Below are positions 2,982 to 30,199 of a stretch of 64,000 nt of DNA, one piece after another (position 1 is the first letter of the stretch; the number at the start of each line of letters is the position of its first letter). This DNA is from Cymodocea nodosa (lineage: Eukaryota; Streptophyta; Magnoliopsida; Alismatales; Cymodoceaceae): assembly GCA_036874045.1 (NCBI GenBank), contig CM072336.1, positions 25,061,501 through 25,125,500 of the forward strand, in the 5' to 3' direction. The translations under genes and the position numbers were made by a program. The notes below the pieces were generated by a model that was not told the DNA's origin, made no database searches, and saw only the letters and a list, made by a program, of their open reading frames with translations.

Positions 2982-3359
2982 AAAGGAAAAGTTAGTCAAT
3001 TTTTCATCCTTCAAAAACAATGGGAAATCCCTTTAAGAATGATTCCATTGCTAAGAACACTATCATTGTTGTCGAGAACGTTGTCACAACTACTGTTCAA
3101 TTATTTCTTTGGTGATTATTGTCTTGTTTCATGCTTCTCCTCTTTCTTTGGTCAAGAAAATTGTTGCAAACTTTTTTCAATCTGTGTTGTCTCTTCCATT
3201 CACTAAAGAAATCTCCCTCTTCTTCTACCCAAGTGAAGAAATAGAAACTTCCCTCCTGTTTTATTGGATTGCATTTTGGTTTGCTAGGCAAAAGGTTGTG
3301 CGCCTTTTTCATGGCTTCTGATTTGGGGATGTGGGTTTTTAGTTGTAGCAAAAGCTATC

Positions 3360-3880: not shown

Positions 3881-3918
3881 TAAATACTTCATGACATCAT
3901 TTAGCTAAAAAGATAATA

Positions 3919-6240: not shown

Positions 6241-6544
6241 ACTACATTTAATTATAAGTTGTTGTCATAACAAATAAATAAAACATATACAATAACAACA
6301 TTCATTATCAGTTTAATCAATTTAACCTAGTTCACACCAGTTTAATGTTAAAAATGGTTTTTAGAAAAGAAAAACCAGTTGCTTCTAATTTTAATTCAAT
6401 CTGGTTCGACTAGGTTTGGTTTAAAAAATAGTGATTCAAGGTGATGAATCACAAGAGAATAAAACGAATATTTAATATAACATGAAAACATAGAACTGAG
6501 CATTCAAAAAAATTATAATTTATTCAAAATATCAAATCAACTAC

Positions 6545-7150: not shown

Positions 7151-7459
7151 CTTTATGGTCCTTTGACTAATATTATGCTATTTAGATTCCCTTCAAACAT
7201 AAATTAGTATCGATTAGTATATAGACTATGACTGTGAAGAACCCATCTCATTCTATCATTTCAAAGGTAGTAAACACATATTTATAGTGATTATCTGCAT
7301 AAACTACGATTATGATGCACCTGAACCTTGCTTGGACTACCATTTCACTACCAATTGAAAACATAAACAAACAGTGATTATTGTAAAAACTATGATTATG
7401 AAGCGCCTACCTTATACTACTATTTCACCAGCACTTGAAAGAAATAAATTGACAGTACT

Positions 7460-7822
7460 TATTGTATAAACTATGATTATGAAGTAAGGAACAAGGGAAT
7501 CGAACAAGGGATTCATACCAATTGATAGATTTAGGGTTTTACCAAATAGGAAGTCTTAAGGAATGGCGAGCATTAGAAGAGACTTTGGAAGCAATTGCTC
7601 TGGCAGGGAGGGACTTTGGCAACGACGATTGGCAAGTGCTTATTGTATAAACTATGATTATGAAGTAAGGAACAACGGAATCAAACAAGGGGATTCATAC
7701 CAATTGATAGATTTAGAGTTTTAACAAACAGGAAGTCTTAAGGAATGGCAAGCATTAGAAGAGACTTTGGAAGCAATTGCTCTGGCAGGGAGGGACTTTG
7801 GCAACGACGATTGGCAAGTGCT
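7460..7822. repeat. 181-bp direct tandem duplication
   Basis: Two nearly identical units, 7,460-7,640 and 7,641-7,822, start with 'tattgtataaactatgatt' and end with 'ttggcaagtgct'. They differ by a few substitutions and a one-base indel. Shorter, more diverged copies of the 'aaactatgattatgaag' part occur at about 7,300 and 7,390, so the array grew from a shorter motif. High identity between the two full units suggests a recent duplication. Confidence 0.9.
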
Positions 7823-7929
7823 GGAGGAGTCACGAGGACTGGAGGAGTTGAGTGGATTGGCGAGCACTAAATTAGACAATGTTAAATAATATCTTCTAAT
7901 GCTCATCAGTCCTCACGACTCCCTGTGAT

Positions 7930-10900
7930 ATTAAATACATTTTAATTTAAATATTATAATACTAAATAATTATAATGTTAAACAATATCAAACAATTCTT
8001 CCATCTTATATTATCATCATCATATCTTTGCACACCTTATCTCTCATGTTAATTGTATATCACCAATAATATTTAACCCTTTCAACTCATTTTACAGGTC
8101 TTTAAGTAAATCTTCTTTATCATTAACATAATCAGATAGATGATATTTTACACTTTAATATAGACAAATATATTCTAATCGATTCAGATATCCAATATAA
8201 ACTAAGTAAAACTTACTTGTATAAAAAAAAATATTAGTATAGTGACATCTTTATAACTTAAAAATAAAAAACACATTTACTTGGTGGAAACCTAAAAATC
8301 ATTAGATCTAGTAACTGTGTCTTGGAGAACATGAGCATCAACATTTGATCCTTCCCAATCAGCTAAAATATATGTAAATTTCATATCGAAATTACATATT
8401 ATCATTACATTTTGAGACAATTCACCTTTTCTATTTCTAAATCTTGTTATTACTTGTTCATAAATAGTTATTTTAATGTGTATCATCAATAACTTAAATG
8501 CAATCCTGTGAACATACCATTTTATTTTGATATTGATTAAAATAATATTTAAGATAAAAAAACTAAAAGTAATAATATACCTTAAAATATAATTACACAT
8601 TTGAATCATTTTGAATTCAACTTGGTGTTTCAAAATTTACAAAATGAAGGTCTTGTAAGAAACACAATTTAGTCATAATATAGCATTAAAACTTCATTAA
8701 AATATTTACTAATTATCCAACTTTGTCGACTAAATCGCTCTGTAATTACTTCATACCTTTGATTTTACTTAATTATCACAAAAAACATGGTAAACTACTC
8801 TTCTACACCGATATTGTTGATATCTGTAAGAACTTCCCTCCTCAATAAATCACAAAAACCCCTAAAAACACTTTAGATCATTCTATAAATCTTTAAACAA
8901 TTGTAAGCTTGTTATAGTAAAGAAAAATCTAGTAATCTTCATATATATTCTACTCATTTACTATAAATATGACTTGTACTTAAAAACAAAGTTAAAGTAC
9001 TTACAATCCTTACTAAAATATTTCAAAAAGCAAATAGACGTTAAGAATTTTGTTTTGATGATATATATTTTATTAAAGTCTATAAATAAGTCTAAATAAG
9101 TCTAAGTATAACAGTCACATAGACATTAACGAATTTTGAAAAGTCATATAGTTATAAGTTAACGTTTCTATTTAGTTAAAAAGTTATGTTAAAAACTTAT
9201 ATAGTTAAGTTATCTACACTTGTGTTTTTAATATTTTCACGTGTTTTTCATGTACATTCGATAATAAAAATCGAAGAATTAAATAACTATTCAAGTTTTT
9301 ATACAAATAGATAGATAACTGTTCAAGTTTTATAAAATGACTAATAAACAAATAAATTTTCTTGTTCAGTCACATATTTTGCAGATGCAAGAACTCAAAG
9401 AGTTACAGATAAGTATACGACTAAAGCAGTGACTTAAAAAGATATTCTACAAATCTTCAAGAATATAAAGTTTCAATGGATTTACAATATAAAATCGTGA
9501 AAATTCAAAATAAGAAATGCACATAGTGAAAATTCAAAAAGTCAATGGAGATCGTGGATAATTTAAATTTAGTACATAAGATTATAAATTATAGATTAAG
9601 TAAATGAACATGCTGAATGTAAAGTCATAGTTTAACTACTATAAATAGAATACAAGTTGCATTACGATCTTCTCAATCTCAAACACTAAGTCTAAATATT
9701 CAAATTCAGAAAAATTCTCCAACATCAGAAGAAGTTCGAAATTACAAGCAATTTCAGAAAAAGAGCTACAATGCAAGAAAATTAAAAATTCAACAATTGA
9801 AAAAGAAAAGATACAGAAGCTAAGCAAAAAGAAGGAAAAGAAACTACATGCATAAAGATCAGGTTTTATACAATTTGAAATTAACTTAGAATAAGGATTT
9901 TATTTTCTCTTTAAATTGTATATCAAGCTTTATTATATCAGAACTGACAAAAAGAGAATTGAACTGAAAAGAAATTGTAAATCCTTTTTTAAAATCTATA
10001 AATATTAGAATTTTATTTACAATTATTTTATATTCTTGTTTTATCCGTTGATAATTTTAATTACTAAATACACAATTCATCCGCTCTCTTATGATACAAC
10101 AAACCTAAAAACATCTTTGCCTTCTTCTAACCTATTCTTCCTCTTCTTCAAATAACATCAATATCTCATTTACTAATTTGAGAAATTTCTCTTCAAAAGT
10201 CATCATCACCTACAAAATAATATAGAGCAAAAGAAGATATCAACTTTAAGTTCAAACATATTAAAAGGTTCTCTAGAAATAAACATACTACATGAAATCA
10301 TTCCACAATTAATAGAATATAACAAAATATGGTAAACATACGACAATATCATTCCACATTTCAAATCCAAACAAAAAGTACATGACATCAAACATCTAAT
10401 ACAAAAAGAAAATATTTAAACCATCTTTAGTCCTTCATCTTTTCTAACTGAAACTTTAACCATACTAGTCGCATTTCTTACGGAATTAACAAAAATATTT
10501 TACTGAAATCTTTCTTTTAAAATAATTCAATAGCTTTAAATCGATCAATCACAAATACATCTTTAATCTCAAATATTGTTGTAATAGCTTCATCTAAAGA
10601 AGACTTAGACTTCTTTTTCTATATGAACATTTCTCTTTGTATCTCAATCATCTTTCTCATTTGTTCATTACGTACTTCACCATTAACATTATCTTTTTTA
10701 CACATAGTAAGAAAAACTTGTGATGCATCTTTCAAACATTCTACTATCATTTGATGAAATTCTACATGAAGACATGCTTGTTTCTCTTTTTTCCTCCACT
10801 CCAATGGGACTTGTGCCTACAAAAAGACACAATATAAATTAAAAAAATTATATTACATAAACTAACATAATTAAATTATCTAAGTAGAATATCAAACTTT

Positions 10901-13233
10901 AATGAACTCCTTCCATATTTCTTCATCTATGTCAATATACTCTTGTACGAAATGTCATCCCCATCCACTCTAATTTACAATTTTGGAGTAGTTACAATAC
11001 ATTTATCTCTATGTTTTTAGGTGAATTTTCATATTCTTTTTTGTAAGACATGCATTTCTTCTATTATTGTATTTTAGAACTACTTCATCCTAAGTGCTCC
11101 TTTTTATCTTTCCATCTTATGTTTTTTTATTTTTTTCATTTAACATTTCTAACAAAATATCTAAAAAGAATACATCTGCAACAACATTCTAAGTCATATA
11201 ACTTCATCTTCCATTATCCTTTCCTTTATCAAGAGTAACCATTTTCTACATGAGAATAAATATTAATAAAGGATAACAAAAAATATTTTTATGTAAATAC
11301 ATACATAAAGCTAGCAAGCACACAATAAATCATTTATAATCATTTCTACATGATAAACCAATACAATTTTCATATATAAACAAATCAATCATTCACAATA
11401 TTAACAAAAGTCATTCACAGATACAATTAGTCATGACATAACACATTCTAAATTGGTTATTTTCAACTAATGATAAATAATCTACAAATATAAACATAGT
11501 CATCAATAATTATGTATAGAAAATAGAAATAAAGTCATGAAATTAAAACAATAATAACAACAACAATAACAATCTAAACCATAATCTTACTACATAGAAT
11601 CACCCATAAAACAAAATGATAATATTTAAAAATATATCCATAAAGATCATGATATGATGTAGTGGCAATATAGCAACCACACATGGATGAAAATTAATGC
11701 ACCAAAACATGTAGACATATATACTAATGGGCTATAAAGATTTAGCTTCTCCTGAACTAGTTAAACATTCTACATTGCCATCTAAATTGTGTTTACTTAA
11801 ACATTGAAAAAAAAAATTACACTTTCTTCAACATCAACATAGGCTTCATTTCTTCTTGCATTGATGTGATTTACTGCTACAATCGAAACAAAGCTAGATT
11901 TTCTTTTTCATCTTTAGTAACTCTTTTTTAGTCCAAGTATTGACTTTTTGGTAATATATTGATACTGAAATATTGATGAAACTTTTGCATATATACAATA
12001 AATTGATAGAAAAGTATATAGAAGTGGACTTCCCAAGGATGTTTATATCCAAGAACTCCCATTCATCTTAAGATTACAAAACAAGAGAACCACAACCATT
12101 AAAACTAGAGTTCTCATCAAGCTATTAGTTCTTTAAAACTAATCAAATTTCTAACAGTGGCATAAAAATATGCCTTTTTTACAAAGTAAAACTAAGAGAA
12201 AGACAAACAAAAGCACTAAGGTCTACATAAGCCATACATAAACCACATACACACATACTAAAAAGTTAACCATCATAACATGCATATTCTAATAGACAAG
12301 GGAAAGTTCATCATTTATAAAACACACATTCTCAAGGTATCATGAATTTCTCATATTTGAAATGCCTTGAGAAAATGACAAAGGAAATATCTTATCATGA
12401 AAAGAACAGAAATGTGGTATCCCATTTGCCCATAACCTTTTCCCTTTTATTAGTTCAATAGCAAGGGGAGGTCTCATTTTTGTTTCTTCTCTTTCTTACA
12501 AGGATCAATCTACGCAAAAACAAAGAGAGGAAGAATCGCAAGAATGAAACTCACACATGGAAAGGTGGGTCTCCATTATTTGCAAGTTTCCAGCAGACAC
12601 AAAACAAAAAAGGCGTAGGTCCTCCTCTATTCATAGTTATCCAATAAACATGAAAAAAAAATGAGTAGAAGAGGGCAAAAGTAGCAGGTGCACCTAGCCA
12701 CCTAGTGGCTTATCACCAAGCATGGACAATGTGAGCTTGGGGGGCAACAATTTAATGAGTAGGCATGATAATGGTGGGCGAAACTTTGGTGTGATTCTAT
12801 GAGTCCATGGAAGCACCGCATAGTCAACACGAGAAGCTTGCACGTGAGTAGCATTGAGCATCATTACAAAAATCACATCTATGTCAATCACAGCAAGTGA
12901 AAGTTGCAAGCTCGCAATAGTGGAAGAAGTCAAACCAATGCAAGTAGTGGGCGCAATGGGCATAGCAAGTAGAGGTTGCCAAAAGAAGCACAACAACGAA
13001 AGCAATGGGTGGAAGTCGTGGCTTGAAGTGAAGCTACGTCGATCAAAACGATCGCGTCTAAAAGAGGTCTTATGGGCATAGAGGGTGGAAAAGTATCAAG
13101 TGAAATTTTCAAATGGGAGGAGATCAAAAAGGCATTAGCAGTAAAAGAAATTTTAGATTTTTATACGTCGGTAAAATCTGACTTTCCTTTCAACAATTTT
13201 CCTTTCTGTTAACTGAATTCCATTAGACACTAA
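7930..13233 (-). mobile_element. PIF/Harbinger family-1 copy A, degraded
   Basis: Minus-strand order is ORF1 (about 11.24-10.43 kb) then transposase (about 10.2-8.05 kb). The Myb/SANT ORF1 includes the coiled, charged stretch at 10,804-10,619. The transposase is split by an LTR insertion at about 9.05-10.1 kb. The transposase C-terminus (8,050-8,220) aligns with 15,080-15,430 of copy B. The right terminus at about 13,195-13,233 ('gaattccattagacactaa') matches the right termini at 28,520 and 30,180. The left terminus is not recognisable. All frames are interrupted. The GC-richer block 12,660-13,090 sits just inside the right end and codes for nothing I recognise. Confidence 0.75.
9051..10101 (+). 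mobile_element. LTR-like insertion (probable solo LTR, Ty1/copia SIRE-like)
   Basis: About 1.05 kb interrupts transposase-homologous sequence of copy A: homology to copies B and C stops near 9,040 and resumes at 'ttgccttcttct' near 10,117. The insert begins TGTTTTGATGATAT and ends ATACAACA. It has a TATA-like 'actataaataga' at about 9,638 and a near-terminal 'cacaattcatccgctctctta', which resembles the 'aattcacccccc' close to the 3' end of SIRE-type LTRs. No internal coding region. No clear target-site duplication, so it is old and its borders are approximate. Confidence 0.5.
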
Positions 13234-13412
13234 TCCCTCTTTAGTGCACATCAAAAAGTTCAAACGAAAAGGAAATGGAAAGTTTAAAAAGAAAGGAAAT
13301 GAAATGTTAGAATTCACGTAAAAGTTTAATGTACCTATCAAAAAATTCAAAAAGTTAAAATTCCCATAGAGATTTAGTACACGATAGAATGTTTAAAAAT
13401 TGAAAAAATAAT

Positions 13413-14800
13413 GAAATAAATTATAAAATACTACCTAAAATTGTGTAATTGATACATTAATTTGTAATTTAATATTTAAAAATAAAAATAATATTAATTT
13501 ATTCCATGTTCAAATATAATTATGTACATTAAATGTAAAAATAGTGTACATTAGAAAATATAGTGATTCAATATAAACATGACACTCATCAAAATGCAAA
13601 AGGTCTATAAAAGATAAGCATACTTTTAACATTAAAAATTACATCTTAATTTTTTTTTGTAATTTTATTATTATTATTAATTCTTGAATATATATATTTC
13701 TAATATTATTCTCTTTTTCTTAAATTTTTTTATATAATTATATTTATTTTATTTTATGCATATTTATATCTTAAAAAAAATTATTTAAAGATGTTATATC
13801 ATTATTGTATTTTTTACTATTATTATTTTAATATATATGTATGTATATTTACTTAACTTGGCCAAACCAAGAATGTATAAAATATGCAAAAAAATAAAAT
13901 ATTTATTAATATATTATTATTATTTACATATTTATTTATTGAAGAACGATTGAATCGTAAATATATTGGTTCAATCGATAGATTATAAATTATTAATATC
14001 GAAAATGATTGAATCGATGATATGTTGGTTTCACTGATGATTTATGTTTTTTTTTAATCGATTGAATAGATGACTCAATAAATTTGTATTTTTTTATGAT
14101 GTTTTTGAATTGATTGAATCAATTTCATTTCAATTCAATAGATATTTTAAATATATATATATTATTTTATATATATCTTAAATTAATTGAAACTATCACT
14201 TGATTCAATCGATATTTAATTAGTTGAATCGATGGCTCAATAAGTTAATATTTTTTTATGATATTTTTGAATTGGTTGAATCGATTTTATTTCAATTCAA
14301 CTAATACTTTAAATATATATATATTGTTTTATATATATCTTGAATTGATTGAAAATATATATATATTAAATCGATATTTTTGAAACTATCACTTGATTAA
14401 ATCGATATTTAATTGGTTGAATCAATGGCTCAATAAATTGATATTTTTTTATGATTGAATCGATCATGTTTCGATTCAACTAATATTTTAAATATATATT
14501 ATATTTCAAGTATTTAATTTAATTGAATTACTTAATTTAATATATATATTTTTGTTATATTATATTATATTATTATTATTTTGCTATTACATATAAACTA
14601 AATTACCATTTTAAACATTAATATAATAATAATAATTTATAATCTATGATTTGAACCAATATATTTAGGATATGAACCGAAATAAATTATAAAATACTAC
14701 CTAAAATTGTGTAATAGATACGTCAATCTATCTGTAATTTCATATTTAAAAATGAAAATATTATTAATGAATTTAAAAAGTACATATGTTCAAATTATTA
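13413..14800. repeat. AT-rich repeat block flanked by a direct duplication
   Basis: A segment of about 115 bases beginning 'aataaattataaaatacta' occurs at about 13,415 and again at 14,681. Between them lies very AT-rich DNA. At 14,071, 14,233 and 14,426 a degenerate unit restarts ('tgactcaataaa', 'tggctcaataag', 'tggctcaataaa'), giving spacings of 162 and 193 bases; the longer unit has an extra internal piece. Each unit carries several ATCGAT-type palindromes in the context 'ttgaatcgat'. No coding potential. Confidence 0.75.
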
Positions 14801-14989
14801 CAACATAAATTTAAAAAATAGTCTAAAGGTACAAAGCATTCAAAGTATTACAACATGTAAACAATAATCTAATGAAACAAAGCATTCTACTTATTATAAC
14901 ATCAATATAATAAATAATCCAAAGGTATAATATAAATAGACGTAAATAATCCTTCCATCCTAAATTGTCATCATCATATCCTCACATAT

Positions 14990-16296
14990 CTTATTAGTTA
15001 CCTGTTTTCATTGTTCTTGACTCATTCCAACTTATGAATGTCCATCCATATGTAATTCTCCTGTTGATTATATATCATCAGTAATATTTAATTCTTCTAA
15101 CTCATCTTACAAATCTTCAATTAAATCTTCTTTATCAGTCATTCAAATAAAATTATGAAGTAAAAAACATACGATCACAATCTACACTTGTGTATCATAT
15201 AAATATAACATCTAACTTCGTAAGATTGAAAAATAATATTTCACAACTCTAAATGTACACTCAATAACTATTCTTAGTTATGAATGACTCTAGTTAAAGT
15301 TTTATACAGCATTATTAGGAAGTCTGTCATTAACATAATCAGATAAGTAATAGTGTACACCACGAAATGGGTAAATATACTCTGATTGATTGGAATATTC
15401 AATATCTACCAAGTAAAACTTACCTATATAAGAATAAAAATTAATATGATAATGTATTTATTACTTGAAAATCAATAAGTCCAGTAATTGCATCTTAAAG
15501 GATACGAACATTAGCTGCTGATCCTTCCCAACCAACTAAAATATTTGTAAATTTCATATCAAAATTACATGTCATCACATTAAGACAATTCACCTTTCCT
15601 ATTTCTAAATCTAATTGTTTGTTGTCTAAAAATAGTTATTTTAATATAAATACCATCAACTTCAATGCAATTCTGTACACATTAAACATCATTTAATCTT
15701 ATTTTAAATAACATAAAAAAAAGAAAGGATATTACAAAAGTGAATACGTACCTTAAAATAAAAATAGACATTTGCATCATTTGCAATTTGACTTAATGTT
15801 GAGGATGAAGGTTTTGCTATAAACACATAATTTAAATGTAATATAACATTTAATACTTCATTAAAGCACTTGCTAACACTCTAACTTGAATGACTAAATC
15901 GCTCAACTATTATTCCATATCTTTGATTTTGACAAAGAACATAACAAATTTCTCTTCTACACTGATGTTGTTGGTATCAGCAATAACTCCTTCATTCCTT
16001 ATTAAACCACAAAAACTTTTAAACACACTTTGACTCATTCTATAAATCTTTCAACAATTGTAACCTTAATAAGGTTGGGAAGAATCTAATAATCTCTTGA
16101 TGTAATCTGTACCTTCTTTACTATATATACGACTTATGTTATTGTAAAGTAACGGTGACATATTTGCCATTTTCCTTAAAATTGTCCATGATGTAAATAG
16201 ATATAGTTGCCTTCTTCTATCTACTTCTTCATCTACTAGGAATGAAATTGCATTATCAACTATAGTAATAAACATGACACTAGGAATCATCCTCAC
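14990..16296 (-). pseudogene. HARBI1-like transposase of copy B, broken
   Basis: From 16,296 on the minus strand the N-terminal part reads through 'LYNNISRIYSKEGTDYIKRL' and into the segment 'MSQSVFKSFC..RNEGVIADTNNISVEEKFVMF', typical of the region ahead of the DDE domain in plant Harbinger transposases. The first catalytic aspartate block is diverged (IEVDGIYIK near 15,645, where E reads IGAIDGTHIK). A later block 'DYVNDRLPNNAV' (15,310-15,350) and the C-terminal helix region (15,080-15,250) are present. Several stops and frameshifts occur, so the product cannot be functional. Confidence 0.8.
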
Positions 16297-16569
16297 CTAC
16301 AAGGTAACAAGAATATTAAGAATTTATCATTCAACGTTTCAATATATAAAAGGCATTAAATGTTTCAAAATATAACCATTTTACATTTCATAACGATAAG
16401 TCATTTCACATTTCAATAAATAATACATATTTTGCATTTCAACCATATATGACCTTTCACAAAAATATTTCGTCTGCAAAAGATTTTATTTAAAAAATAT
16501 TACATTCACAAAAACACTTCAAAAGTGCAACAAGTTCTGAATTGGGAAAAAAGTGAATTCATGCACAAA

Positions 16570-18000
16570 AAGATTTCATCCATTGGAACCACATGCTCAC
16601 TTCCTAAACTTCAACCATCTATAACGCATTTCTACTGGTAAACTTAAAAATAATTTCCAAATTTTAGCTTTTGGAATAGCTTCATATTGCTTATCTGTAA
16701 AAAAACCTTCAATCTAAAGTAACACTACAACAACATGATGTAAATAATTTTCAATCTTTTCTTTAATATTGACCAAGATGTTTTGTACTTCAAGCAATTT
16801 TTTTTGTACATCAACCAAATCTTTAAATTGTTCATTCTGTGTAACTTAATTTTGTTGTTCTATTTCATACATATGCATAATGATTTTTTATGTATCTTTA
16901 AATGATTCTGCTATAATTTGATAAGACACTACATGAGATCTTGTTTATTTCTTCCTCTTCTCAATTAACACCTTTGAACTTCCTCCTAATGGAAGTAAAT
17001 CAAAATCAATATCCATTGTTTCCTGAGTGTTATCTATAATGCTGAATTCCACATCCTGTGTTTGATACGACCTCCACATCATCATTTTATCTAATCATAT
17101 TCCCAGTAACCATACTACCTTCAAATATTTATTGCAATTGCTCAAATATCAAGCATGATTTTCTTTTGCATCTTTTACACTCTGCATATGCCTATAAAAA
17201 AAACAATATAGTCAAAATGAAAAAAAATAAAGATTATAATATCTTTCAAGTCATAAGCAAGTTAACCTACACAAACTTCTTTCATATCTCATCATCAATG
17301 TCAATGTAATCCTAGATGAAATTCCAATCTAATCTACTCTGATTAGCAATTTTGGAATAATTTCGATACATTTGTAATCAAGTTTTTAAACGACTTTCTA
17401 CATTCTTTCTTGTGATAACTATGTTTCTTTTAGTAATGTATTTTTCGATTACTTATCCTAAGTGCTACATCATCATTTTATTTAGTCATATTTCCAGTAA
17501 CCATACTGACTTCAAATATTTGTTGCAATTGCTCAAATATCAAGCATGATTTTCTTTTGCAACTTTCACACTCTGCATGTACCTATAAAAAAAATAATGT
17601 AGTCAAAATGAAAAAAGATAAAGATTATAATATCTTTCAAGTCATAAGCAAGCTAACCTACACAAACTTCTTTCATATCTCATCGTCAATGTCAATGTAG
17701 CCCTAGGTGAAATTTCAATCTCATCACTCTAGTTAGCAATTTTGGAATAATTTCGATACATTTGTCATCAAGTTTTTAAGCGACTTTCTACATTCTTTCT
17801 TGTGATACCTGTGCTTCTTCTAGTAATGTATTTTTCAATTACTTCATCCTAAATGCTACCTTTTATTTTTCTATCATGAGTTTTTTTATTTCCTTCATGT
17901 AATACTTTTGCTAAAATATTTAAAAAATATACATCTACTTCAACATTCCAACTAATGTAACTTCTACCTCCAATTGTCCTTCCCTTATCAAGAGTATTCA
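16570..18000 (-). pseudogene. Myb/SANT-like ORF1 of copy B, broken
   Basis: Collinear with the intact ORF1 of copy C (27,086-26,061). The Myb/SANT domain part lies at about 18,000-17,650, the second-exon part with 'IFEQLQQIF'-like and charged coiled segments at about 17,170-16,600. A tandem duplication of 391 bases repeats the end of exon 1, the intron and the start of exon 2. Multiple frame breaks. Confidence 0.75.
17076..17858. repeat. 391-bp tandem duplication inside ORF1 of copy B
   Basis: Unit 1 is 17,076-17,466 and unit 2 17,467-17,858. Both begin 'acatcatcattttat' and both include the 'cttcaaatatttrttgcaat' exon-2 start and the exon-1 end of the Myb/SANT gene. They differ at scattered bases, so the duplication is not very recent. 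It doubles the intron with its splice borders. Confidence 0.9.
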
Positions 18001-19235
18001 TATTCTACACAAACATAATTTCAACAAATAAAATAAAACATATAGAATAATAACACAACAATAAAAACATTCATATGCATTTGCTAAAACCATTACATTC
18101 ACAATTTAAAAAAATTAACATAATCCATTTTTAAAAAGCAAACATCAAAAGGAAAATGTACTCGAAAACCATTGAATCAAAAGGATTGCCATTAAGACTG
18201 ACAAACATCAATGGTAGAATAATTTTCTCAAAAAAAAAAGATAAAAAATCCAATAGAATATGAAAATGATGTAACCAAGCATAGGACTATTTTTCCTTTT
18301 AAAAAAATAGGTTATCACATATAGAGTAACATTCAACAAAAATAAAAGATATGGTAATTTGAACAATTCTATAAAGTACCCTTTGGTTATCAAGAGGATC
18401 TTCCTTCTACGTTTCGAACAAATCTTACATGAGTTGAGATCCAAGTTAGATGCTTTTTATAATCAGGTGGGTCTATATATAAATCAAGAATTGCCAATTT
18501 TGAAATAGCATACAAATTTGTATGATAATTAGATCAATAACTAACATATGCTCTTATTCCAAAGGTGCATTCATCTACATGCTTGATGTTCGAGTGCTTT
18601 GTAGATCATTATTATAGTAACTTGTTTTTTTCAATAAGTATTATTTATTTTTGTAGCTTGTACTTGAAGTCTTTTCTTCTCCAATATATGAAATATCTAA
18701 TAAACTTTTGATATAGTAAGTTAATTTTAATTTATTGTAAAAAATGACACAACTTTTACAAATTATACAAAACAAGAAAAATAAACAAACAAAAATATAA
18801 ATTAACAATCAATTATATCTACAAACAAGTACACCTCAAGTTTAAATGTCACCGACAAATTAAAATACAAAGGAAAAGAATTGTTCTTGGCTGTGCCCAT
18901 GGAATAGTAGTTCTTACGTTATTACCTCAAACAACGAAGAGTATTCACATGAATAGTTTTGTAATTTTGAAAACATTGACAAGAAAAATGTAAACAGCAT
19001 TACTTAAACCAAAAGATCATAATGTCACTTCTTATAATGATAATATATCCAATGAAAAGGAACAAAAGTGATACGAAAGCAACGACAACGACAAAAGGGA
19101 GGGAGTATACCTTTTAAGGTTTTTAAGTTAAGGAACCTGACAACAACAATGAAAGCAACCACAATGGAAGTCAAGGGAGTCGTAGAATCAAGAGCCTTCG
19201 CACAATCAGTAGTCAACTTTTTAGAACAGAGAAGC

Positions 19236-19365
19236 TTCGAAAGATGATGACGAAAGCAATAACAACAAAAGCAACGACGATGGAAGCAACGATGACAAAA
19301 GCAACGATGATGGAAGCAATGACGACGAAAGCAATGACTAAAGCAACGATAGAGAAAATGGTAAT
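19236..19365. repeat. Minisatellite in GC-richer end of copy B
   Basis: Short units of the type 'aaagcaacgatgatggaag' (about 15-18 bases, often paired into about 33) repeat across the stretch. They create low-complexity reading frames on both strands, which I do not regard as genes. It lies in the block just inside the right end of copy B, the same place where the other large copies carry GC-rich or tandemly repeated DNA. Confidence 0.75.
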
Positions 19366-20999
19366 GATGGAAGTGAACCACAGAAGTTCAGAAAAGGGGC
19401 CGATGCACGATTCGGAAGGAGAGGACTTAGAAAGACGTTGGCAAAAATGAAAAGTTCATCTTAAATATAGACAGAATTTTTATAAATTCATTTCCACTAT
19501 TTCCCATGTACGCTAACAGCATACAAACGAAAAGTTAAAACTTTCCTTTCCATCAATTCCAATGTGCACTACCACCCCTTAGGGCTTGTTAATGCACACC
19601 AAAAAGTTCAAACGGAAAGGAAATAAAATATCCAAAATGTCAAAATTTCCGTAATAATTTAGTACACCTACCAAAAAATTCAGAAAGTTAGAATTCACAT
19701 GAAGGTTTAGTGCACACGAAAATGTTTAGAAATTAAAAAAGTAATGAAATAAATTGTAAACACTACCTAAAATTGTGTAATTGATATATTAATTTGAAAT
19801 TTCAATTAAACAAATATTATTATTATTATTATTATAATGTAAGTATTTAATTAAATTAAATTACATATTTTAATTAATTTTTTAGTCAAAAGATACAAAG
19901 TATTCAAAGTATTACAACATGAATGCAAAGAATAATCCAAAGATACAAAACATTCTACTTATTACAACATCAATATAATAAATAATCCAAAGGTATAATA
20001 TAAATAGACATAAATAGTCCTTCCATCCCACAATGTCATCATATCCTCATGCATCTTATCAACTACTTCTTTTCGTTGTTCTTAACTCGTTCCAACTTAT
20101 AAATGTCTATCCATATGTACTTCTCCTGTTGGTTGTATATCATCAATAATATTTAATTCTTCTAACTCATCTTACAAATCTTCTAAGTAAATCTTCTTTA
20201 TCAGTCATTCGAATGAATTTATGAAGTAAAAAACATATGATCACAATTTTCACTTGTATTTCATATAGATATGGCATCAACCTCGTAAGATTGAAAAATG
20301 ATGTTTCACAACTCCAAATATACACTTAAGGTCTTTTTGTACACTTGAAATTTGAATTCCACAAAATTTGAATTCTACAGAATTTGATGGAAAGAATTCA
20401 AAATCTAGGTGTTTGTGCACGTTCAGGAAATTGAATTCCAAGTGTTTGTGTACATAACATAATTTGAGGGAATTGAATAGAACTGATTTTTAATAAAATT
20501 AAGTATTGACTTAAAATAATTAATGAAAATGTAATTAATTTATTTATGAATTGTTAACATTAATAAATGAACATATTATTAAAATAAATATTTATATATC
20601 ATTTATTAATCAATTAAATATATCATTATATAAAATAAATCAAAAATTACAGAAATTGATAACTTTCCCGTGATATTACATATTTAAAACAACAAAAGGA
20701 TAATTATAAATTTTATATTCCTCATAATGATCAAAAAAAGGCATATTACAAAAAATCTACTCATTATGATGTTTGTATTTTCATTCACGACCATCCCACA
20801 TTGCATACATAATATTTTCACGAAATTTATCTGCAATTTCTTTTCTTTGCTATTGCGTGTTGTTCCCAATAATGTTAAGTATTTCATATTATCTTTCTAT
20901 ATTTGCAGAGTCTTCAACTTGTATATCACGTTCATCTTCTTATACTTAATATTCAAGATCTTGACATAAGTCTGTTTTATTTGCTTTACGAATGAAGTT

Positions 21000-21680
21000 G
21001 CAACTTCCCACCCACTAAGAACATAAGTAAATTCCATATCAAAATTACATGCAGCCAATACGTTTTGTAACAATTCACCTTTTCTGTTCCTAAATCGGGC
21101 ATTCTCTTTTCCATAAATTGTGACTTTAATATGTGTACCATCAATAGCACCTATACAATCTTACCCATACCAAAAACAAATTTAATTAATATATAAACGA
21201 ATAACATGAAATATCAAAATAGAAATAAAGATTGAAGTGTGTACCTTGAAATATGGATAAATATTAACATCATTCTGAATTCGATTGTGTGTAGCAACTT
21301 CATGTTTAGCTAGAAGTATATTACCTATTTTTAATATAGCATTTATTATTTCATTGAAATATGTACTGACAGTCCATACTAAGCGATGAAAACGCTCTCT
21401 GGTTACTCCATACCTTTAATTTTGTCCAACTGTTACTAAAAAAATAGCAAGTTTCTCCTCTACGCTCATATTTCTACGCTCAAAATTGTGAAAAAACATG
21501 TTGACTCATTCGATAAATTTTCCTGCAGTTGTATGCTTAATATGGTGATAATGGATCTAACAATCTTTGTACATATTGTGCTCCTTCCGTACTGTATATA
21601 CCAGTGGTGGATGTTTGAATCCCATTTATAGTAATTTCGCATAGAAATTGTCATGTTCCCAATATAACTTTTCTTTTTTT
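21000..21680 (-). pseudogene. HARBI1-like transposase fragment of copy E
   Basis: The minus strand encodes 'YVQRLLDPLSPY', 'NCRKIYRMSQHVFSQF' (about 21,580-21,480) and the conserved catalytic block DCIGAIDGTHIKV (about 21,127-21,165). The rest of the DDE domain, expected toward 20.4 kb, is missing or unrecognisable, so the gene is truncated as well as interrupted. Family 2 therefore probably depended on another copy for movement at the end of its life. Confidence 0.7.
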
Positions 21681-21924
21681 CTTCCTTCGTTCTTTGTTTT
21701 CATTAATAATGGACATAGATGTCTTCATAAATTCCAGTCCCTTCATCTGTACCTATCATACCAATTATGATTTAATAAAGAAAACATAATAATAGCATAC
21801 AATGCAAAACAATGTATACATCAACAAAATGTTTAGACCATGTTACGTAATATTAAAGATAACACAAGTTCAATAAATTCAAACATGTTCAACAAAATTT
21901 AAATTTTTAAATGAAAAAAACACA

Positions 21925-23011
21925 TCATTCCAAATTAAACTTCAACCATGAAGTTCTCATGTTCGGTGGTAGACGCCTAAATTGATTCTTCTTTGATTCT
22001 ATCTTCAATAATTGCATTGCCTTGTATTTTTCTTCTTCTGTAAGATCTGTAAGTGAAAGTAAAATAGTGAGAACATCATCTTCTTCACGATCTTTTTTCT
22101 CTAACAATTTCATCTTCCTCTCCATGTATGTTAATTTCCTTTCTTCAATACGTGTAAATGCCATCTTTTCCTTTTAGATCGATATCATGTTCTCTTGTAG
22201 TTGTATGACACGCTCTGAGTATGCCATTTTCCTCGAATTTTCTTCCATATCCTCACTAAAATAATCCATAAGTGATACACCAACATTGTTCATTGTAGTT
22301 GCCATAAGTTGTTGTGATTCAACATGTGGACATGGATGTTTTCCTTTCCTGCATGAGTCTACATCATTCAAACTAAGAAGAGTTTGAGTAGAAAAATGAT
22401 CTTGAGTTTCAACCTCAAATTCCATAGTATTTTGTGTAAGAGGTACATTATCAAGGTCATTTGTATCTTCATTCAAGTTCACAACTACTTAGATTTGTTG
22501 TACTCATTTTAGTTGAGCTTGTTGCAAGATTTCCTTCAAATATTACTTGAAGTTGGGCATATATAGGACATGATTTATCCTTGTACTGTGCATGGATGAA
22601 CCTATTAGGAAAAAAAATATTAGTACAAATTATAAGATAAACAAATGTTAAATTTAAATTTGAAAAAATTCAACTAACCATAACAAATTCATCCCAAACT
22701 TCTTTTGCGATATCAGTATGTCCATGAATATAATTTCATCCCCAACCACTTTGTGCACCAATCTTTCTATAAATCTTGTACATTTGTCGCCATGTTTTCA
22801 TTCGACTATCAATATTTTTCTTTTGGATGTTACCTCCTGTTTCTTTATTGTAATCATAAATTACCTTCAACCAAGTATCAACTCGTATCTTTCCATCAGG
22901 AGTTTTACCATTACCCTCTTTAATAGCATCGTACACCTTTCTTAATATCATCTCATCCGCTTGAACACTCCAACTAAAATAAGATCTTCCACATCCTTTC
23001 TTGTTTTCCAT
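21925..23011 (-). pseudogene. Myb/SANT-like ORF1 of copy E, nearly intact
   Basis: Exon 1 starts at 23,011 (MENKKGCGRSYFSW...) and carries the Myb/SANT-like domain with 'SRMKTWRQMYKIYRKIGAQS'. One in-frame TGA follows 'GWG' near 22,736, where copy C has Trp, and the frame then continues 'NYIHGHTDIAKEVWDEFVM' to a GT donor. Exon 2 includes 'PIYAQLQVIFEG', an acidic serine/threonine-rich middle (22,482-22,174) and the C-terminal block 'LPPNMRTSWLKF' ending at 21,925. A few stops separate the pieces. The likely role was DNA binding and nuclear import of the transposase, as known for Harbinger Myb-like proteins. Confidence 0.8.
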
Positions 23012-23328
23012 TTCCTAAGAATACATATATGAACAAAATATAAAATGCACCACAACATAATATAAAGATGGACATTACCATAAACATTAGATTCACAATA
23101 TACACCTATCAATTCAATTTTGGGAATCATTATTTGTTGCTAGTGAATCATAAAATAGTCTTGTCTCTCAGTGAATGCTAGTTGCAACATTGCAGTTTCA
23201 AAGTTTGAAGACTGATGCAAACTGATGTCAGAAATAACATCTGCAGCTTTGATATTCCAAGAATTTACATAATCAATATATACAAAAATAAATGATGTTT
23301 GCACAATCTATACTAAACCATAAAAAAT

Positions 23329-23700
23329 GATGTTTTCACAATCTATACTGAACCATAATTTATTTCCATAATCAAATAAATGACGTTTACATACTGAACC
23401 ATAATTAAACAATCTATATTGAACCATAATAAATGATGTTTGCACAATCTATACTGAACCATAATTTATTTCCATAATCAAAAATAAATGATGTTTACAT
23501 ACTGAACCATAATTAAACAATCTATACTTAACCATAATAAATGATGTTTGCACAATCTATACTGAACCATAATTTATTTCCATAATCAAATAAATGATGT
23601 TTACATACTGAACCATAATTAAACAATCTATACTGAACCATAATAAATGATGTTTGCACAATCTATACTGAACCATAATTTATTTCCATAATCAAAAATA
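23329..23700. repeat. 106-108-bp tandem array in copy E
   Basis: Units start at about 23,329, 23,435, 23,543 and 23,649 with 'gatgtttgcacaatctata' or a close variant; the last is partial. Each unit contains several copies of 'ctgaaccataat'. An extra start at 23,294 has only a short piece. The array lies between ORF1 and the GC-rich block, in the presumed leader/promoter side of the element. Confidence 0.9.
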
Positions 23701-24243
23701 AATGAATACCACTGGACATTACCATAAACACAAACTGGACATTACCATAAACACAAATTCACAATATACACAATCTATATACACAAAATACCACTGGATT
23801 ACATGTTAATTTACAAATCATATTTCTTGCTGCACATCCAAAATTGACGAAGCTAGCATTCGAATGTGAAAGTATTCTAACGGAATGTACCTGTTCAACC
23901 AGCGTCGAGCATCGCGATGCACTGCACAAACACGGGAGGACTACGATGATGCGATGACGAACGACTCACGAACGACAAGACGACACGATCGAAGCTTAGT
24001 GCCGCAGAATGTTCAACGAGACAAGTGTTCAAGGAAGACAGAAAGGGCGAAAATCAACACCTTAGACCAGGGAAAGCATCTAACGGGGCGACGGTGAGTG
24101 CCAACAATCGAAGAGCATGAGATACAGATGGCGATAGAAGCAAGCGCAAGTCAAGGCAAGGGCTTCTACGTTCGTTCAGGAAAAACAGAGACTTTCGATA
24201 CTCGAAAGTGTCGGAGCCGAGCGCGCAAGTCGATTGCAGCGCA

Positions 24244-24489
24244 GGCGATGGTGCAAGCGAGTGCCACGACGAGCGCGCAAGTCGAGCGATCGAGCGTCGA
24301 TGCCAACGAGCGTGCGGGGGAATCAACGAGGGGCCGAGTGTGCAAGTCGAGTACAACGCAGGTGAAGGCAATGGTGCAAGCGAGTGCCACGACGAGCGTG
24401 CAAGTCAAGGAGTCGAGCGTCGGTGCTGACGACCGTGAGGGGGAATCGACGAGGGGCTGACGAGCAGGAGGGTGCAAGATCGCGAGGGG
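24244..24489. repeat. 123-bp direct duplication in GC-rich end of copy E
   Basis: Units 24,244-24,366 and 24,367-24,489 share 'atggtgcaagcgagtgccac' and 'gaggggctga'-like ends. The surrounding 23,890-24,490 block is strikingly GC- and CpG-rich for this window. It produces overlapping open frames of 70-125 codons on both strands (arginine/serine/alanine-rich), which look like composition artefacts and not like genes. Confidence 0.85.
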
Positions 24490-26060
24490 CTGACTGTCAG
24501 AAAATGAATTCCGACCTTTTAGGTTGGGAAAATGAATTCCCAACCTTTACATATGCAAATTCCAAAATGCACAAACACCTCATGACTCGAAATCTGACGG
24601 AAAATATTTTCAATTCCGTCAGATTCCGAGTGCACAAACCCCCATTAATGACTATTCTTAATTGTGAATGCCTATAGTTAAAGTTTTCTACAGCATTATT
24701 AGAAAGTCTATCATTAACATAATCAAATAAGTGATAGTAAACACCTTAAAATGGACAAATATACTCTGATCAATTAGGATATCCAACATCTACCAGGTAA
24801 AACTTACCTATATAAGAATAGAAATTAATATGATAATGTACTTATTACTTGAAAATATACTAATTGCATTTGCCTAGAGGAACTTAGAAATCAATAAGTC
24901 TAGTAATTGCATCTTGAAGGATATAAGCATTAACTATATTAAACATATGTAAATCAATAGGTCTAATAACCAGCTAAATTTTATGTAAATCTCATATCAA
25001 AATTACACGTTGTCATCACATTTTAAGACAATTCACCTTTCTTATTTTTAAATCTAACTGTTTCTTATCTAAAAATAGTTGTTTTGATATGAGTACCATC
25101 AATAGCTCCAATGTAATTCTATACACATTAAACATCATTTAATCTTATTTTAAATAACGTAAAAAAATATATGGACGTTACAAAAGTGAATAAATACCTT
25201 AAAATAAAGATAAACATTTACATCATCTATAATTCGACTTGATATTGAAGATGAAGGTCTTGCTATAAACACATGATGTAGACGTATTATAGCATTTAAT
25301 ACTTCATTAAAGTATTTGCTAAGACTCCAACTTGAACTAAATCACTCAACTGTTACTCCACACCTTTGATTTTACCCTACTATGACAAGGAACATGACAA
25401 ATTTCTCCTTTACACTAATGTTGTTGGTATCAACAATAACTCCTTCATTTCTCATTAAAGTACAAAAATTTTTAAACACACTTTGACTCATTATGTAAAT
25501 CTTCCAACAATTGTAAGTTTGATGAGATTGAGAAGGATCTAGTAATCTCTTAATATAATCTGCACTTTCTTTACTATATATACGACTTGTGTTATTGTAC
25601 AATAATGTGACGTACTTGCCATTTTTGCTAAAATTATCTATGACGTAAATAGACGTAGTCACCTTCTTCTATCTACTTCTTCATCCAGTAAGAATGAAAT
25701 TGTATTATCAACGGTAATAGTAAACATGTCACTGGGGTTCATCCTCACAAGATAACAAGAATATTACAAATTTATCATTTCACATTTCAATATATAAAAG
25801 ACATTCCACATTTCTAAGAAAATAAAAGACATTGGACATTTCAATATAAAAAGCATTTTACATTTCATAACGATAAGTCATTTCACATTTCAATATATAA
25901 TATCCATTTTACATTTCATCCATATATGACCTTCCACAAAAAGATTTCATCCATAAAAGATTACATTCACAAAAACACTTCATAAACCCAAGAAGTTCAA
26001 GATTGAAAAGAAAGAGAATTCATGCACAAAACAAATATTCCATCCATTGTAACCACATGC

Positions 26061-27086
26061 TCACTTCCTAAACTTCAACCAACCACAACGCATTTTTGCT
26101 GGTAAACTTAAGAACATTTTACAAAATTCTGGCTTTTGGAATAGCTCCATAGCTTCATATTGTTCATCTGTAGAAAGACCTTCAATTTGAAGTAACACTG
26201 CAACAGCATGATCTAAATAATTTTCAGTCTTTTCTTTAATATCGACCAACCTACTTTGTACCTCAACCAATTGTTTTTGTACATCAACCAACTCTTTAAA
26301 TTGTTCATTCCATGTAACTTGACTTTGTTGATATATTTCACACATATGCATAATGACTTTTGATGTATCTTTAAACGAATTTGCTATGACTTGATGGGAC
26401 ACTACATGAGATCTTGCTCGTTTCTTCCTCTTCTCAATTGCCACCATTGAACTTCCACCTGATGGAGGTAAATCAGAATCAATGTCTATTGTTTCCTGAG
26501 TGGTAGTTAAAGTGTTCAATTCCACGTCTTGTGTGTTTGATACAACCTCTACCTCATTACCTTGTTTAACCATATTCCCAGTGGTCATACTACCTTCAAA
26601 TATTTGTTGCAATTGCTCAAATATCAAGCATGATTTGCCTTTGTAGCCTTCACACTTTGGATGTACCTATAAAAAAAATTGTAGTCAAAATAAAAAAAGA
26701 TAAAGATTATAATATTTTTCAAGTCATTTTTGCAAACTAACATTAACAAACTCCTTCCAAATCTCATCATCAATTTCAGTATAGCCCTGGATGAAATTCC
26801 AACCCCATCCACTCTGGTTGGCAATTTTGAAGTAATTCCAATACATTTGTCGCCAAGTTTTTAAACGACTTTTTACATTCTTCTTTGTGATACCTGTATT
26901 TCTTCTAGTATTATATTTTTCAATTACTTCATCCCAAGTGCTACCTTTGATTTTTTCATCATGAGTTTTCTTATTTCTTTCATTTACTACTTCTGCTAAA
27001 ATATCTAAGAAATATGCATCTACTTCAGCATTCCAACTAATGTAACTTCTACATCCACCCGTCCTTCCCCTATCAGGAGTACTCAT
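26061..27086 (-). CDS. Harbinger ORF1: Myb/SANT-like DNA-binding protein (copy C), intact
   Basis: Two exons on the minus strand. Exon 1 is 27,086-26,742 (115 codons, ATG start), exon 2 is 26,666-26,061 with the stop; the 75-base intron has GT...AG borders and keeps the frame. The 316-residue product has an N-terminal Myb/SANT-like domain (about residues 12-110; conserved SYISWNAEVD, SRLKTWRQMY, SGWGWNF and WKEFV), a 'CEGYKGKSCLIFEQLQQIF' segment, an acidic Ser/Thr-rich stretch, a basic cluster 'EKRKKRAR' that could serve as nuclear signal, a coiled-coil-like Glu/Lys/Gln-rich region (about residues 215-260), and the C-terminal block 'LPAKMRCGWLKF'. In PIF/Harbinger elements this protein binds near the ends and brings the transposase to the nucleus; that role is inferred from the family. 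It is the only uninterrupted transposon gene in the window. Confidence 0.85.
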
Positions 27087-27910
27087 TTTCTACACAAGCA
27101 TGGTTTCAACAACTAAAATAAATCATATGAAATAACAACACAATAATAAAAATATTCATAGTCATTTGTAAAAACCATTACATTCACATTTACTAAAATT
27201 AATAAAGGATAACAAAAAATATTTTCATGCAAATACATAAACAAAAAGTCACAATCTCCTATTGTACATGACAACCATTACTTGATCAACTGTTAGAAAT
27301 TACCTAACCTACAAGTAATCTAATTACGTTCCATATAAAGATGTACTTATTTTATCCATCTAAATCATTTTGAAGAAGCATATGTATCAGTTATATATTT
27401 ATGTATGTAGATACTCTTGTGATCTGTAGATCTTTATGATCTACTTTTTATGAATGAAATGGGTTTACTCTTGTCAAACAAAAATCATACCCTAATAGTG
27501 AAATAGCTATGGTATTGACACTTTAACAGTGATTGTGATTTTTACATTTATACACAAATGTAATGTATTCTTCCTCTAAAATAAAATACAAATATTAATA
27601 ATTTTTCCTACCTAGAATCATTTTAATTGAAAATGATGTTACTCTAACAAACTTCTACATATATCATACTAGATTTTGTTTTATACAATCACAACCAAAG
27701 AGCTACCATTTGAAGTAATTTTTATTTTAAGATCCCAATCACTTATAAAATATTGTACTACTGTCCAACATATAAAGGGAACAAGGTGTAATTCCTGCAA
27801 AAGGTAAAGTTAACTAAACAAAAGCATAATATAATCAATCATTCAAAAGTTAATACCAAGATTCGAATGTTAACAAAAATCACGAATACTATTATTCTTC
27901 ACCAATTATA

Positions 27911-28420
27911 TTACCTGCTTGTCGCAAGATCGAGGGAAACAATGGAAACACGATCACCTGAGGCTTGTGGGAGCGGGCAAAAGTCACAACAGTCGGGTAG
28001 AAGAGCTAGCGACACACAAGAGCCATATTGCACAATGGAATGAAGAGCTGAAGGGAGGATGTTGCGACAGCAGCGACCTTCAGGCGATAGTGGCAACTTT
28101 CGAGCGACACAACAACAGCAATAGATGTTCTTCAGCTTAACAGGTCGAGGTGGAGGCATCAAGCTTGGGGGGAGGTCAATTTTCAGAGTCTTTTGGAAGG
28201 GGGGAGGTCAAAAACGAAAGCGATTCGAGCCTTCGAGTGACAGCAATGACCTTCAAGCGACAACGATAGCTTTCAGGTGATGCGACAGCAGCAACGAATG
28301 TTCTTCAACTTTGCAGGTCAAGGTAAGGGCATTAGGCTCAAGGGGAGGTCGATTTTCGAAGTCTTTCAAAAGGGAGGAGGTCGAAAATCGAAAGCGATAA
28401 AGGTAATTTTAGGTATTTAT
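27911..28420. other. GC-rich block at ORF1-side end of copy C
   Basis: GC-rich DNA with two diverged direct repeats: 'caggtcgaggtggaggcatc' near 28,140 and 'caggtcaaggtaagggcatt' near 28,314. Each is followed by a 'ggggaggtc..ttttc' segment and by 'gtcgaaaa'-type sequence, with 'cttcaagcgacaacgatag'-like pieces between. Open frames of 70-84 codons on both strands show no family resemblance. Since it lies upstream of ORF1 on the minus strand, it may be the promoter and 5' untranslated region of the transposon gene. Confidence 0.5.
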
Positions 28421-28541
28421 ATGTCGGTAAAATTCAACTTTCCTTTTCCTTCAAGTATTGTGCATACTAACAGCATTCTAACAGAATTCAACAATTTTCC
28501 TTTCCGTCAGCTGAATTCTGTCAAACACTAACCCCCCCTTA

Positions 28542-30197
28542 ATGTTTATAAGGTATGAATCTCAAATCCTAATGGGTCTGTAGTCTAACAAATGCATAAA
28601 GATGTAGATAACTATGACTAGAAATTGTCATAAAAAAACTACAACAAATAGAAGATAAACCTATTGATAAATATCACTACAGCAAGAGATAGAGTTTTCT
28701 ACTACAACATGAAATAAATCTAAGATATTATGTTTTGTTGCACAAAGAAATCACATCATCAAAATTGGGGAAGCCATCTTGATTTAAACCAACCATTCTA
28801 TATAATATTCTTAAGAAATAAGGCATTCAAACTAGATGTAATAATTGAATTAATTAAAGATAATAATATTTGTAACTTCTAGTAAATGTAAATTAGCAAC
28901 ACAATAAAAAAAATAGGGCATACTCTCATTTTCAATCTAGCTAAAAAATAAAATAAAAAGTGAAGCACATGTCAATGTTTGCGAACATTAGATGAGGAAT
29001 GTTCACCATCTTTCCTGAAAGACAAACTTCATCATATCCTTTTGCTTCTATTCTTCTTTAAAATGAAGGATTGCTTTTCTTCTATTTTCCTTGGCCAAAA
29101 CGCCTATTAAATTTTTTATCTTTACTATTTGACAAATAAGTGAAAATCAAAAGGGAAACCAATCTTCTAAGAGAATGATATGAGCGAAACCAAATGCTTT
29201 GAAGCAGTAAGCAAAAAGGGAAAGTAAAACAAGAATCCGCCCACCAACCTTCAACACTTGAAATCATCATACAAAGGATTAATACAATCTAGCCCCAATT
29301 CATCACACAAAATAATAATACACTCAAAATGGACAATAAAATATGGTGGTTGACAATCAAAACAATGGTACAAAAAAAAAAATAGTTGCAAGAGGAGATT
29401 TATGTACCAACTACAAGCAATGAGCTTCGAGCTTGAGCAACGAGCAACGGTAGAAGAGTAGTAGAAGAGCAACATAGATTTTATTGGAAGTGGAGCAATA
29501 GAGATTAGGAAACGTCACGTGGAACAGTAGAGCAGTGAAGCAAAAGTGGAGACGATGTTGCAAGCACCAATCTTGCTGGAACAATTCTTCAAGCATCAAA
29601 AGAGCAATGGTAAATCGAGCACACAGGAAGAAGTTGGGATGATAGCACAACAAAGAGAGATCTTGTTGGAAGTGAAGTAGTAGAGATCAAGAGGCGTTGC
29701 GTGGAATAGTGGAGCAACAAAGCGAAAATGGAGACAACATTGCGAGCACCAATATTATTGGAAGGGTTCTTCGAGCACCAAAAGAGCAACGACAAGCTAA
29801 GCACGTAGGAAGAAGTCAAGATGACAGCATGGCAAAGAGAGATCTTGCTAGAAGTGGAGTAGTAGATATCAAGAGACGTCATGTGGAACAATGGAGCAAC
29901 AAAGCAAAAGTGGAGATGACATTGCAAGCATTGATCTTGCTGGAAGGGTTCTTAAGCAATGAAAGAGCAACGACAAGTCAAGCACGTAGGAAGTCAAGAT
30001 GAGAGCACAACGAAGAAGTCGAAATCATATGGGGGGAAGGTTAGAAACAAAGGGGCGGTAAAGGAAAATTTTCCTTTTTATATGGTGGTAATTTGCCTTT
30101 TCCTTTCCTTCAGGAAGTATGTACACTAACACCTACTTGACGGAATTCAACAATTTTCCTTTTAATTGATTGAATTCCATTAGGCACTAACCCCCCC
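28542..30197 (-). mobile_element. PIF/Harbinger family-1 end fragment D
   Basis: The right terminus 'gaattccattaggcactaac' followed by a C-run (about 30,172-30,197), with the subterminal 'caacaattttcctttt' block before it, matches the right ends of copies A and C. Inside it lies the 182-bp triplicated block. No transposase or ORF1 is present and no left terminus was found after the target duplication of C at 28,541. This is either a truncated copy or an internally deleted non-autonomous one. Confidence 0.6.
29487..30032. repeat. 182-bp tandem triplication in fragment D
   Basis: Units begin at 29,487, 29,669 and 29,851 with 'gaagtgga(a/g)' and contain 'caaagcraaartggagayga' and 'cttgctggaa(g/c)' in the same order. 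The spacing is exactly 182 bases twice. The third unit is slightly shorter at its end. Because 182 is not a multiple of three, open frames in the array change phase from unit to unit, which argues against coding. Confidence 0.9.
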
Positions 30198-30199
30198 TA

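Follow-up and report, generated by a model that had tools for sequence, protein, structure and literature searches.

Successive TTA insertions as the probable origin of a head-to-tail PIF/Harbinger cluster in Cymodocea nodosa

Introduction

How do several transposons of one family come to stand head to tail with their ends touching, by separate insertions or by duplication of a single unit? A stretch of 64,000 nucleotides of Cymodocea nodosa (GenBank assembly GCA_036874045.1, contig CM072336.1, positions 25,061,501 to 25,125,500; here called the window) raises this question. A preliminary description read it as an array of Harbinger copies A, B and C with an end fragment D, and offered two origins: insertion at TTA or TAA in or at the ends of related elements, or tandem duplication of a unit. 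Self-insertion of long elements has been raised as a hypothesis, as far as the accessible text of that source goes (PMC10288884). Here, the array is examined through its junctions, the divergence of its copies and the letters of its target sites.

Results

The cluster and its members

Self-comparison of the AT-rich window placed the PIF/Harbinger copies A, B, C and E and the right-end piece D in one common orientation at about 7930–30197, and a further Harbinger piece, F, in the same orientation outside that interval, at about 3925–6310. The array itself is real, and the shared orientation and relatedness of A, B, C and D, as first described, are confirmed by self-comparison and alignments. 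C is not a single uninterrupted copy; it is split by E, a nested element of a second subfamily with both ends present, which the preliminary description missed. The features are as follows.

3925..6310, minus strand: F, left part of another Harbinger copy (BLAST and 200-base bins)
7930..13240, minus strand: A, Harbinger copy with right terminus ...CACTAATCCCTCT at 13228–13240 (start as in the preliminary description)
13241..13243, no strand: TTA, read as doubly used, as right-hand target triplet of A and as positions 8–10 of the left terminal repeat of B (junction register)
13241..19578, minus strand: B, Harbinger copy whose left terminus is short of its outermost 7 nt (self-comparison, terminus register)
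19579..19581, no strand: single TTA between the right end of B (CACCCC) and the left end of C (GGGCTTG) (junction letters)
19582..28538, minus strand: C, Harbinger copy with both termini, GGGCTTGTTAATG and GGGGGGGTTAGTG, split by E (Myb gene open, transposase broken)
20329..24644, minus strand: E, Harbinger copy with both ends, from another subfamily, lying inside C in the same orientation (TTA at 20326–20328 and 24645–24647)
26061..27089, minus strand: Myb/SANT-like (ORF1-type) gene of C in two open stretches, 121 and 201 aa (PF12776, open frame)
28539..28541, no strand: TTA at the right end of C (junction letters)
28542..30197, minus strand: D, right-end piece of another Harbinger copy with terminus GGGGGGGTTAGTG (TAG flank; left part not contiguous, possibly F)

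Other repeats accompany the cluster. Between F and A, the sequence at 6840–7230 resembles, when read by eye, a Copia-type reverse transcriptase, with a YVDDIIVTN-like motif that we take to be of that type. To the left of the lost left end of A, 7454–7822 is a tandem duplication with 181-base spacing and 96% identity, apparently much younger than the surrounding elements. Inverted repeats lie within 50238–52470 (51043–51617 against 51769–52346, 75%; 50238–50364 against 52344–52470, 86%) and gave no match to the Harbinger copies in the self-comparison.

Coding content and terminal features

The coding content is of PIF/Harbinger type, a Myb/SANT-like gene together with traces of an IS5-like DDE transposase (DDE_Tnp_4). 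Both genes are on the minus strand, with the Myb gene upstream of the transposase. The Myb/SANT-like family PF12776 was found above cut-off in C (45.6 bits, E=1.4e-11, 26724–27089) and in E (30.0 bits), while a profile search of C 26061–26666 returned no family above cut-off. Matches to DDE_Tnp_4 lay below the family cut-off of 24.8 bits, both in a fragment of A (E=5.4e-4, 20.1 bits) and in a fragment of E (E=0.0062, 16.6 bits), and three pieces of C, whose stretches are broken, gave no DDE_Tnp_4 match in the profile search. Throughout the copies, the transposase stretches are interrupted by stops or frame breaks.

The Myb gene of C (26061–27089) is wholly open, while the C transposase (24700–25670) is broken by stops and frame breaks; the Myb half is either younger, through recombination, or kept by selection. 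Ten stretches in viral contigs fit a pattern as relatives of the C Myb protein, and none was confirmed.

A 3-bp target duplication of TTA/TAA is seen for E, which has TTA on both sides and an empty site in B, and for C, which has TTA on both sides. A and B offer one outer side each, and the only flank of D is TAG. The terminal motif G(N)5GTT, given as the TIR motif of Medicago elements in the accessible text on them (PMC2213677), is exact in three of the seven termini (C left, GGGCTTGTT; C right and D right, GGGGGGGTT). Both termini of E and the right termini of A and B depart from it at one or more positions, and B left is incomplete. Within each of B, C and E, local alignment of the left end with the right end yielded short matches only, so the ends were compared in register instead.

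Junctions between the copies

The right terminus of A at 13228–13240 is CACTAATCCCTCT, after which TTA (13241–13243) leads directly into GTGCACATCAAAAAGTTC. The register comes from the left end of C, GGGCTTG-TTA-ATGCACACCAAAAAGTTC (GGGCTTG-TTA-ATG): the bases after A, TTAGTGCAC, correspond to the C left terminus from the 8th position on, and GTGCACATCAAAAAGTTC aligns from the 8th base of C. B therefore lacks its outermost 7 nt, A ends exactly at the terminal TTA of B, and the two copies do not simply abut. Of the abutment earlier placed at about 13,233, what stands is that A ends next to B sequence; the end of A is at 13240, and B is short of its outer 7 nt. Read inward, the 13-nt end of A is AGAGGGATTAGTG, equal in length and register to the C right and D right ends and three transitions apart from GGGGGGGTTAGTG. 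BLAST and reading found no left terminus of A, whose homology to B and C begins at 8042 in the self-comparison. A pattern search of 1–8100 for the lost 7-nt stub of B, with G or A at fixed positions, gave one weak candidate, at 7197, which we do not credit.

The junction letters uphold the earlier observation that TTA alone (19579–19581) separates B from C: B ends CACCCC at 19578, and the GGGCTTG of C follows the triplet. C ends CCCCCCC at 28538, again before TTA, which thus stands on both sides of C. E lies within C at CACTTAATG, between two TTA copies. When the C flanks of E are joined, the resulting CACTTAATGACTATTC aligns with CACTCAATAACTATTC of B, gap-free at the insertion point; a gap of a single base lies some 50 bases to the left of that point.

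B also carries an internal tandem duplication of 391 bp and an extra 1.27 kb (1266-base offset) between duplications of ~90 bp (13413–13498 and 14679–14768, 88%). The extra sequence, 13413–14768, contains repeats of about 160 bp and a 46-nt inverted pair (13954–13999 and 14626–14671), and its ~90-bp flanking duplication greatly exceeds the length of an ordinary target duplication. Gap-repair filler and the fusion of two copies are possible origins of this extra sequence.

As judged from these letters, A probably landed inside the tip of B, entering the TTA at positions 8–10 of the terminal repeat. The outer stub of B would have been lost later, together with the left end of A, and either B or C would have entered the TTA duplication of the other. 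Several points stand against reading the junctions as successive TTA insertions: the left end of A and the 7-nt stub of B were not found, the left end of B is rearranged, and D is flanked by TAG, not TTA.

Divergence of the copies

B and C are 84.8% identical in the transposase part, 84.6% in the Myb part, 85.2% in the Myb C-part and 84.0% in the left noncoding part. In the transposase part, identity is 73.3% for A–B and 72.3% for A–C, and E has 61.5–63.0% to A, B and C and 74.8% to F. Differences there are thus about 15% for B–C, 27–28% for A against B and C, and 37–39% for E against A, B and C. The uniform divergence of the B and C bodies, equal in coding and noncoding parts (84–85%), would also be expected of an old duplication of a dead unit.

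Beyond the Myb gene, in the last 1.3–1.5 kb, B (18119–19578) and C (27203–28538) have no significant similarity (shuffle z 1.4). Their best alignment, located at both termini, scored 51 against a shuffled maximum of 53. Among the 15 pairs of 3′ parts, C–D ranked top (z 10.0, last 180 bases), followed by C–A (z 9.0, some 125 bases close to the end; the A sequence compared stopped 9 bases before the actual end of A), B–D (z 5.5, reaching both termini), B–E (z 3.7, away from the ends) and A–E (z 2.9); in the remaining ten, z did not exceed 2.0. Copies of a tandemly repeated unit would be as similar in their 3′ parts as elsewhere, so the lack of significant similarity between B and C argues against duplication. 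In a tandem array, copies are homologous over the whole unit and share the same junctions, and A, B and C depart from this.

The promoter-side kilobase, from Myb start to right terminus (27203–28400, 18119–19400, 11260–13100, 23015–24500 and 28542–30000), has little or no similarity in most copy pairs, in contrast to the similar bodies. Local tandem repeats within it measure about 182 bp (three copies, 29471–30016) and about 107 bp (23303–23705).

Read in the frame of C, the Myb gene has no stop in 322 codons of C and 14 in 307 codons of B (8/112 and 6/195), which is also gapped; the Myb N-part has 8/117 in A and 5/103 in F. Had both genes decayed equally since a single moment, a split of 14:0 would have p 1.2e-4, stops being taken as independent. 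Relative rates indicate equal decay of the B and C transposase parts (specific changes 54 vs 60 with A as outgroup, 33 vs 44 with E) and of the Myb C-part (18 vs 19, outgroup F). For the Myb N-part, the counts tilt towards B (26:22, 28:18 and 28:16 with outgroups A, F and E) but fall short of significance. Since the transposase rates of B and C are no different, an age difference between them is argued from the Myb stops only. The contrast between Myb and transposase is not secure: Fisher p is 0.04 when E serves as the outgroup and 0.49 when A does. By codon position, B–C Myb changes number 15, 16 and 23 in the N-part, a modest third-position excess, and 35, 28 and 27 in the C-part, with none; polarised counts were too small to use. 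The comparison of divergence among A, B and C suggested at the outset favours separate insertion without proving it: the B and C 3′ parts lack significant similarity and their Myb stops stand at 14 to 0, but the equal decay of the B and C transposases points the opposite way.

Pieces F and D

F was matched by BLAST to E at 4093–4860 (73%) and to C at 5582–6206 (80%). It is nearer E in seven 200-base bins from 4125 to 5524 (57–80% to E, 45–64% to C) and nearer C in four bins from 5525 on (67–84% to C, 52–62% to E), the first bin being undecided (49% and 50%). Its left, transposase side is E-like and its right, Myb side C-like; F is evidently a recombinant element. The switch falls within 5525–5725, with the BLAST boundary at 5582–5586, at about the homologous Myb position in E and C. 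No right terminus of F was found. D, in turn, shows a terminal match between 28394–28539 and 30055–30198 (72%) and ends CCCCCCC at 30197, followed by TAG. The left part that D lacks may be F, in which case A, B and C would have inserted into F/D.

Target letters and the docking idea

The 9-bp target consensus of PIF is CWCTTAGWG; a search of open-licence literature for these letters found no paper. The E site, CACTTAATG, agrees with this consensus at 8/9, a score equalled or surpassed by 25 of the 4258 TTA sites that the window has on its two strands, and the site to the right of B before C, CCCTTAATG, agrees at 7/9, reached by 241 of 4258. These two sites, of E and C, are the only ones readable on both sides, that of C only if C entered after B; if B instead entered the left duplication of C, the left half of CCCTTAATG is not readable. 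The A site shows its right half only, GTG, which fits the consensus. A 9-bp insertion preference is described for maize PIF and mPing (PMC2836001) and appears also in a second source (PMC6327408), each as far as its accessible text goes.

The junctions suggest that the element tips resemble the favourite landing site of the family. The outermost GGG would resemble the GWG half of the target, and an element starting GGG and ending CCC, placed in CWCTTAGWG, would create the flanks CWCTTAGGG and CCCTTAGWG, each 8/9. Each terminal repeat would hold a further TTAGTG half-site, where the TIR motif G(N)5GTT runs on into A(G)TG. With regenerated flank sites and this half-site, termini could serve as reusable docking sites. 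We nonetheless consider it doubtful that docking at related termini is a real preference of the family. Equally tentative is the broader proposal that head-to-tail arrays arise from termini that mimic their own target, with later copies docking there and then recombining, as F would have done as a chimera of E and C.

B has 511 TTA/TAA sites and C has 303. For two of the three traceable insertions to fall at terminal sites, the rough p is about 2e-4. This estimate is post hoc, the array having been selected because its ends touch. The 4/511 terminal sites of B were used for all three events, though E lies in C and the B right repeat, GGGGTGGTAGTG, is now without TTA.

Origin of the array

We read the locus as a local group of plant PIF/Harbinger transposons, now decayed, that, to go by its junctions, arose through successive TTA insertions, several of them in or beside earlier copies, with a probability of roughly 0.75. 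The junctions bear most of the weight for separate insertion, which the divergence favours and does not prove. Tandem duplication of a single Harbinger unit to give A, B and C, which then decayed for a long time, would account for the common orientation and for the uniform 84–85% identity of B and C across transposase, Myb and left noncoding parts with equal transposase rates, and the internal tandem duplications show that local duplication occurs in the region. Against it stand the lack of significant similarity between the 3′ parts of B and C, their Myb stops of 14 and 0, and the distance of 27–28% between A and each of them in the transposase part. The junctions are unlike as well, one shared TTA between complete tips at B/C and a position inside a terminus at A/B, and an exact cut at element plus TTA would not be normal for a duplication. 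The second of the two origins first offered is thus poorly supported, and we hold it to be improbable. An assembly artefact, named as a concern in the preliminary description, is hardly credible. The stretch is repeat-rich, but collapse or false repetition would give near identity, whereas the copies are 15% or more apart, and the E empty site and the TTA triplets are coherent; as the transposase parts differ by 15% up to 39%, an assembly error repeating one unit is unlikely.

The first of those origins, in which TTA triplets at or within the ends of related elements serve as targets, agrees with the A/B and B/C junction letters; E in C shows TTA insertion into a related element but not at its end. 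Neighbouring independent insertions with no preference, through ordinary TTA targeting and a small deletion at the left tip of B, overlap with successive insertion as we read it and differ from it solely on the preference and the A site; we put this account a little below even odds. TTA/TAA sites are dense, three events are few, and ordinary nested Harbinger insertions are described in the accessible text on Medicago (PMC2213677). Two of the three traceable insertions nevertheless fall within 10 bp of a terminus, and a random deletion would have had to end exactly at the TTA of B and the last base of A. Compatible with successive insertion is also the possibility, to our minds somewhat unlikely, that F and D are halves of one older element that served as the target for A, B and C. 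F has a left part without a right end and D the reverse, their orientation is the same, and both the right half of F and the terminus of D are C-like. Set against this are the lack of similarity between 6310–7930 and D (z 0.2), the other repeats in 6310–7930 and the flanks, TAG for D and, by eye and not pinned down, ATA or TAA at the left of F.

Discussion

Successive insertion makes this locus a clear, unusually tidy, but ordinary example of known nested DNA transposon insertion. Jiang and Wessler reportedly described, in 2001, nested MITEs of maize and rice whose nesting revealed insertion preference. Here too preference is read from elements nested in each other, but the elements are long and coding, and two of three insertions are at termini. 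In Medicago truncatula, nested and composite PIF/Harbinger elements include MtPH-M-2-IIa and others, and in MtPH-M-2-IIa an older Harbinger copy was the later target of a related one. The Medicago elements further share with ours G(N)5GTT TIRs, TTA/TAA duplications and, in one subfamily, internal tandem repeats; abutment over one TTA or insertion inside a related terminal repeat is not described in the accessible part of that work (PMC2213677). The cluster resembles maize PIF and rice mPing/Ping/Pong in the 3-bp TTA duplication, a Myb-type ORF1 beside a putative transposase and, possibly, an insertion preference reaching 9 bp, but those families are active, whereas here the transposase stretches are broken (PMC2836001, PMC6327408, as far as accessible).

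In the accessible open-licence literature, we found no description of coding Harbinger copies that share one TTA or are docked in a related terminus, nor of insertion at TIR position 8. If docking at termini were general, clustered and composite Harbinger/Tourist copies would be explained without duplication, and the sites where large hybrid elements originate would become predictable.
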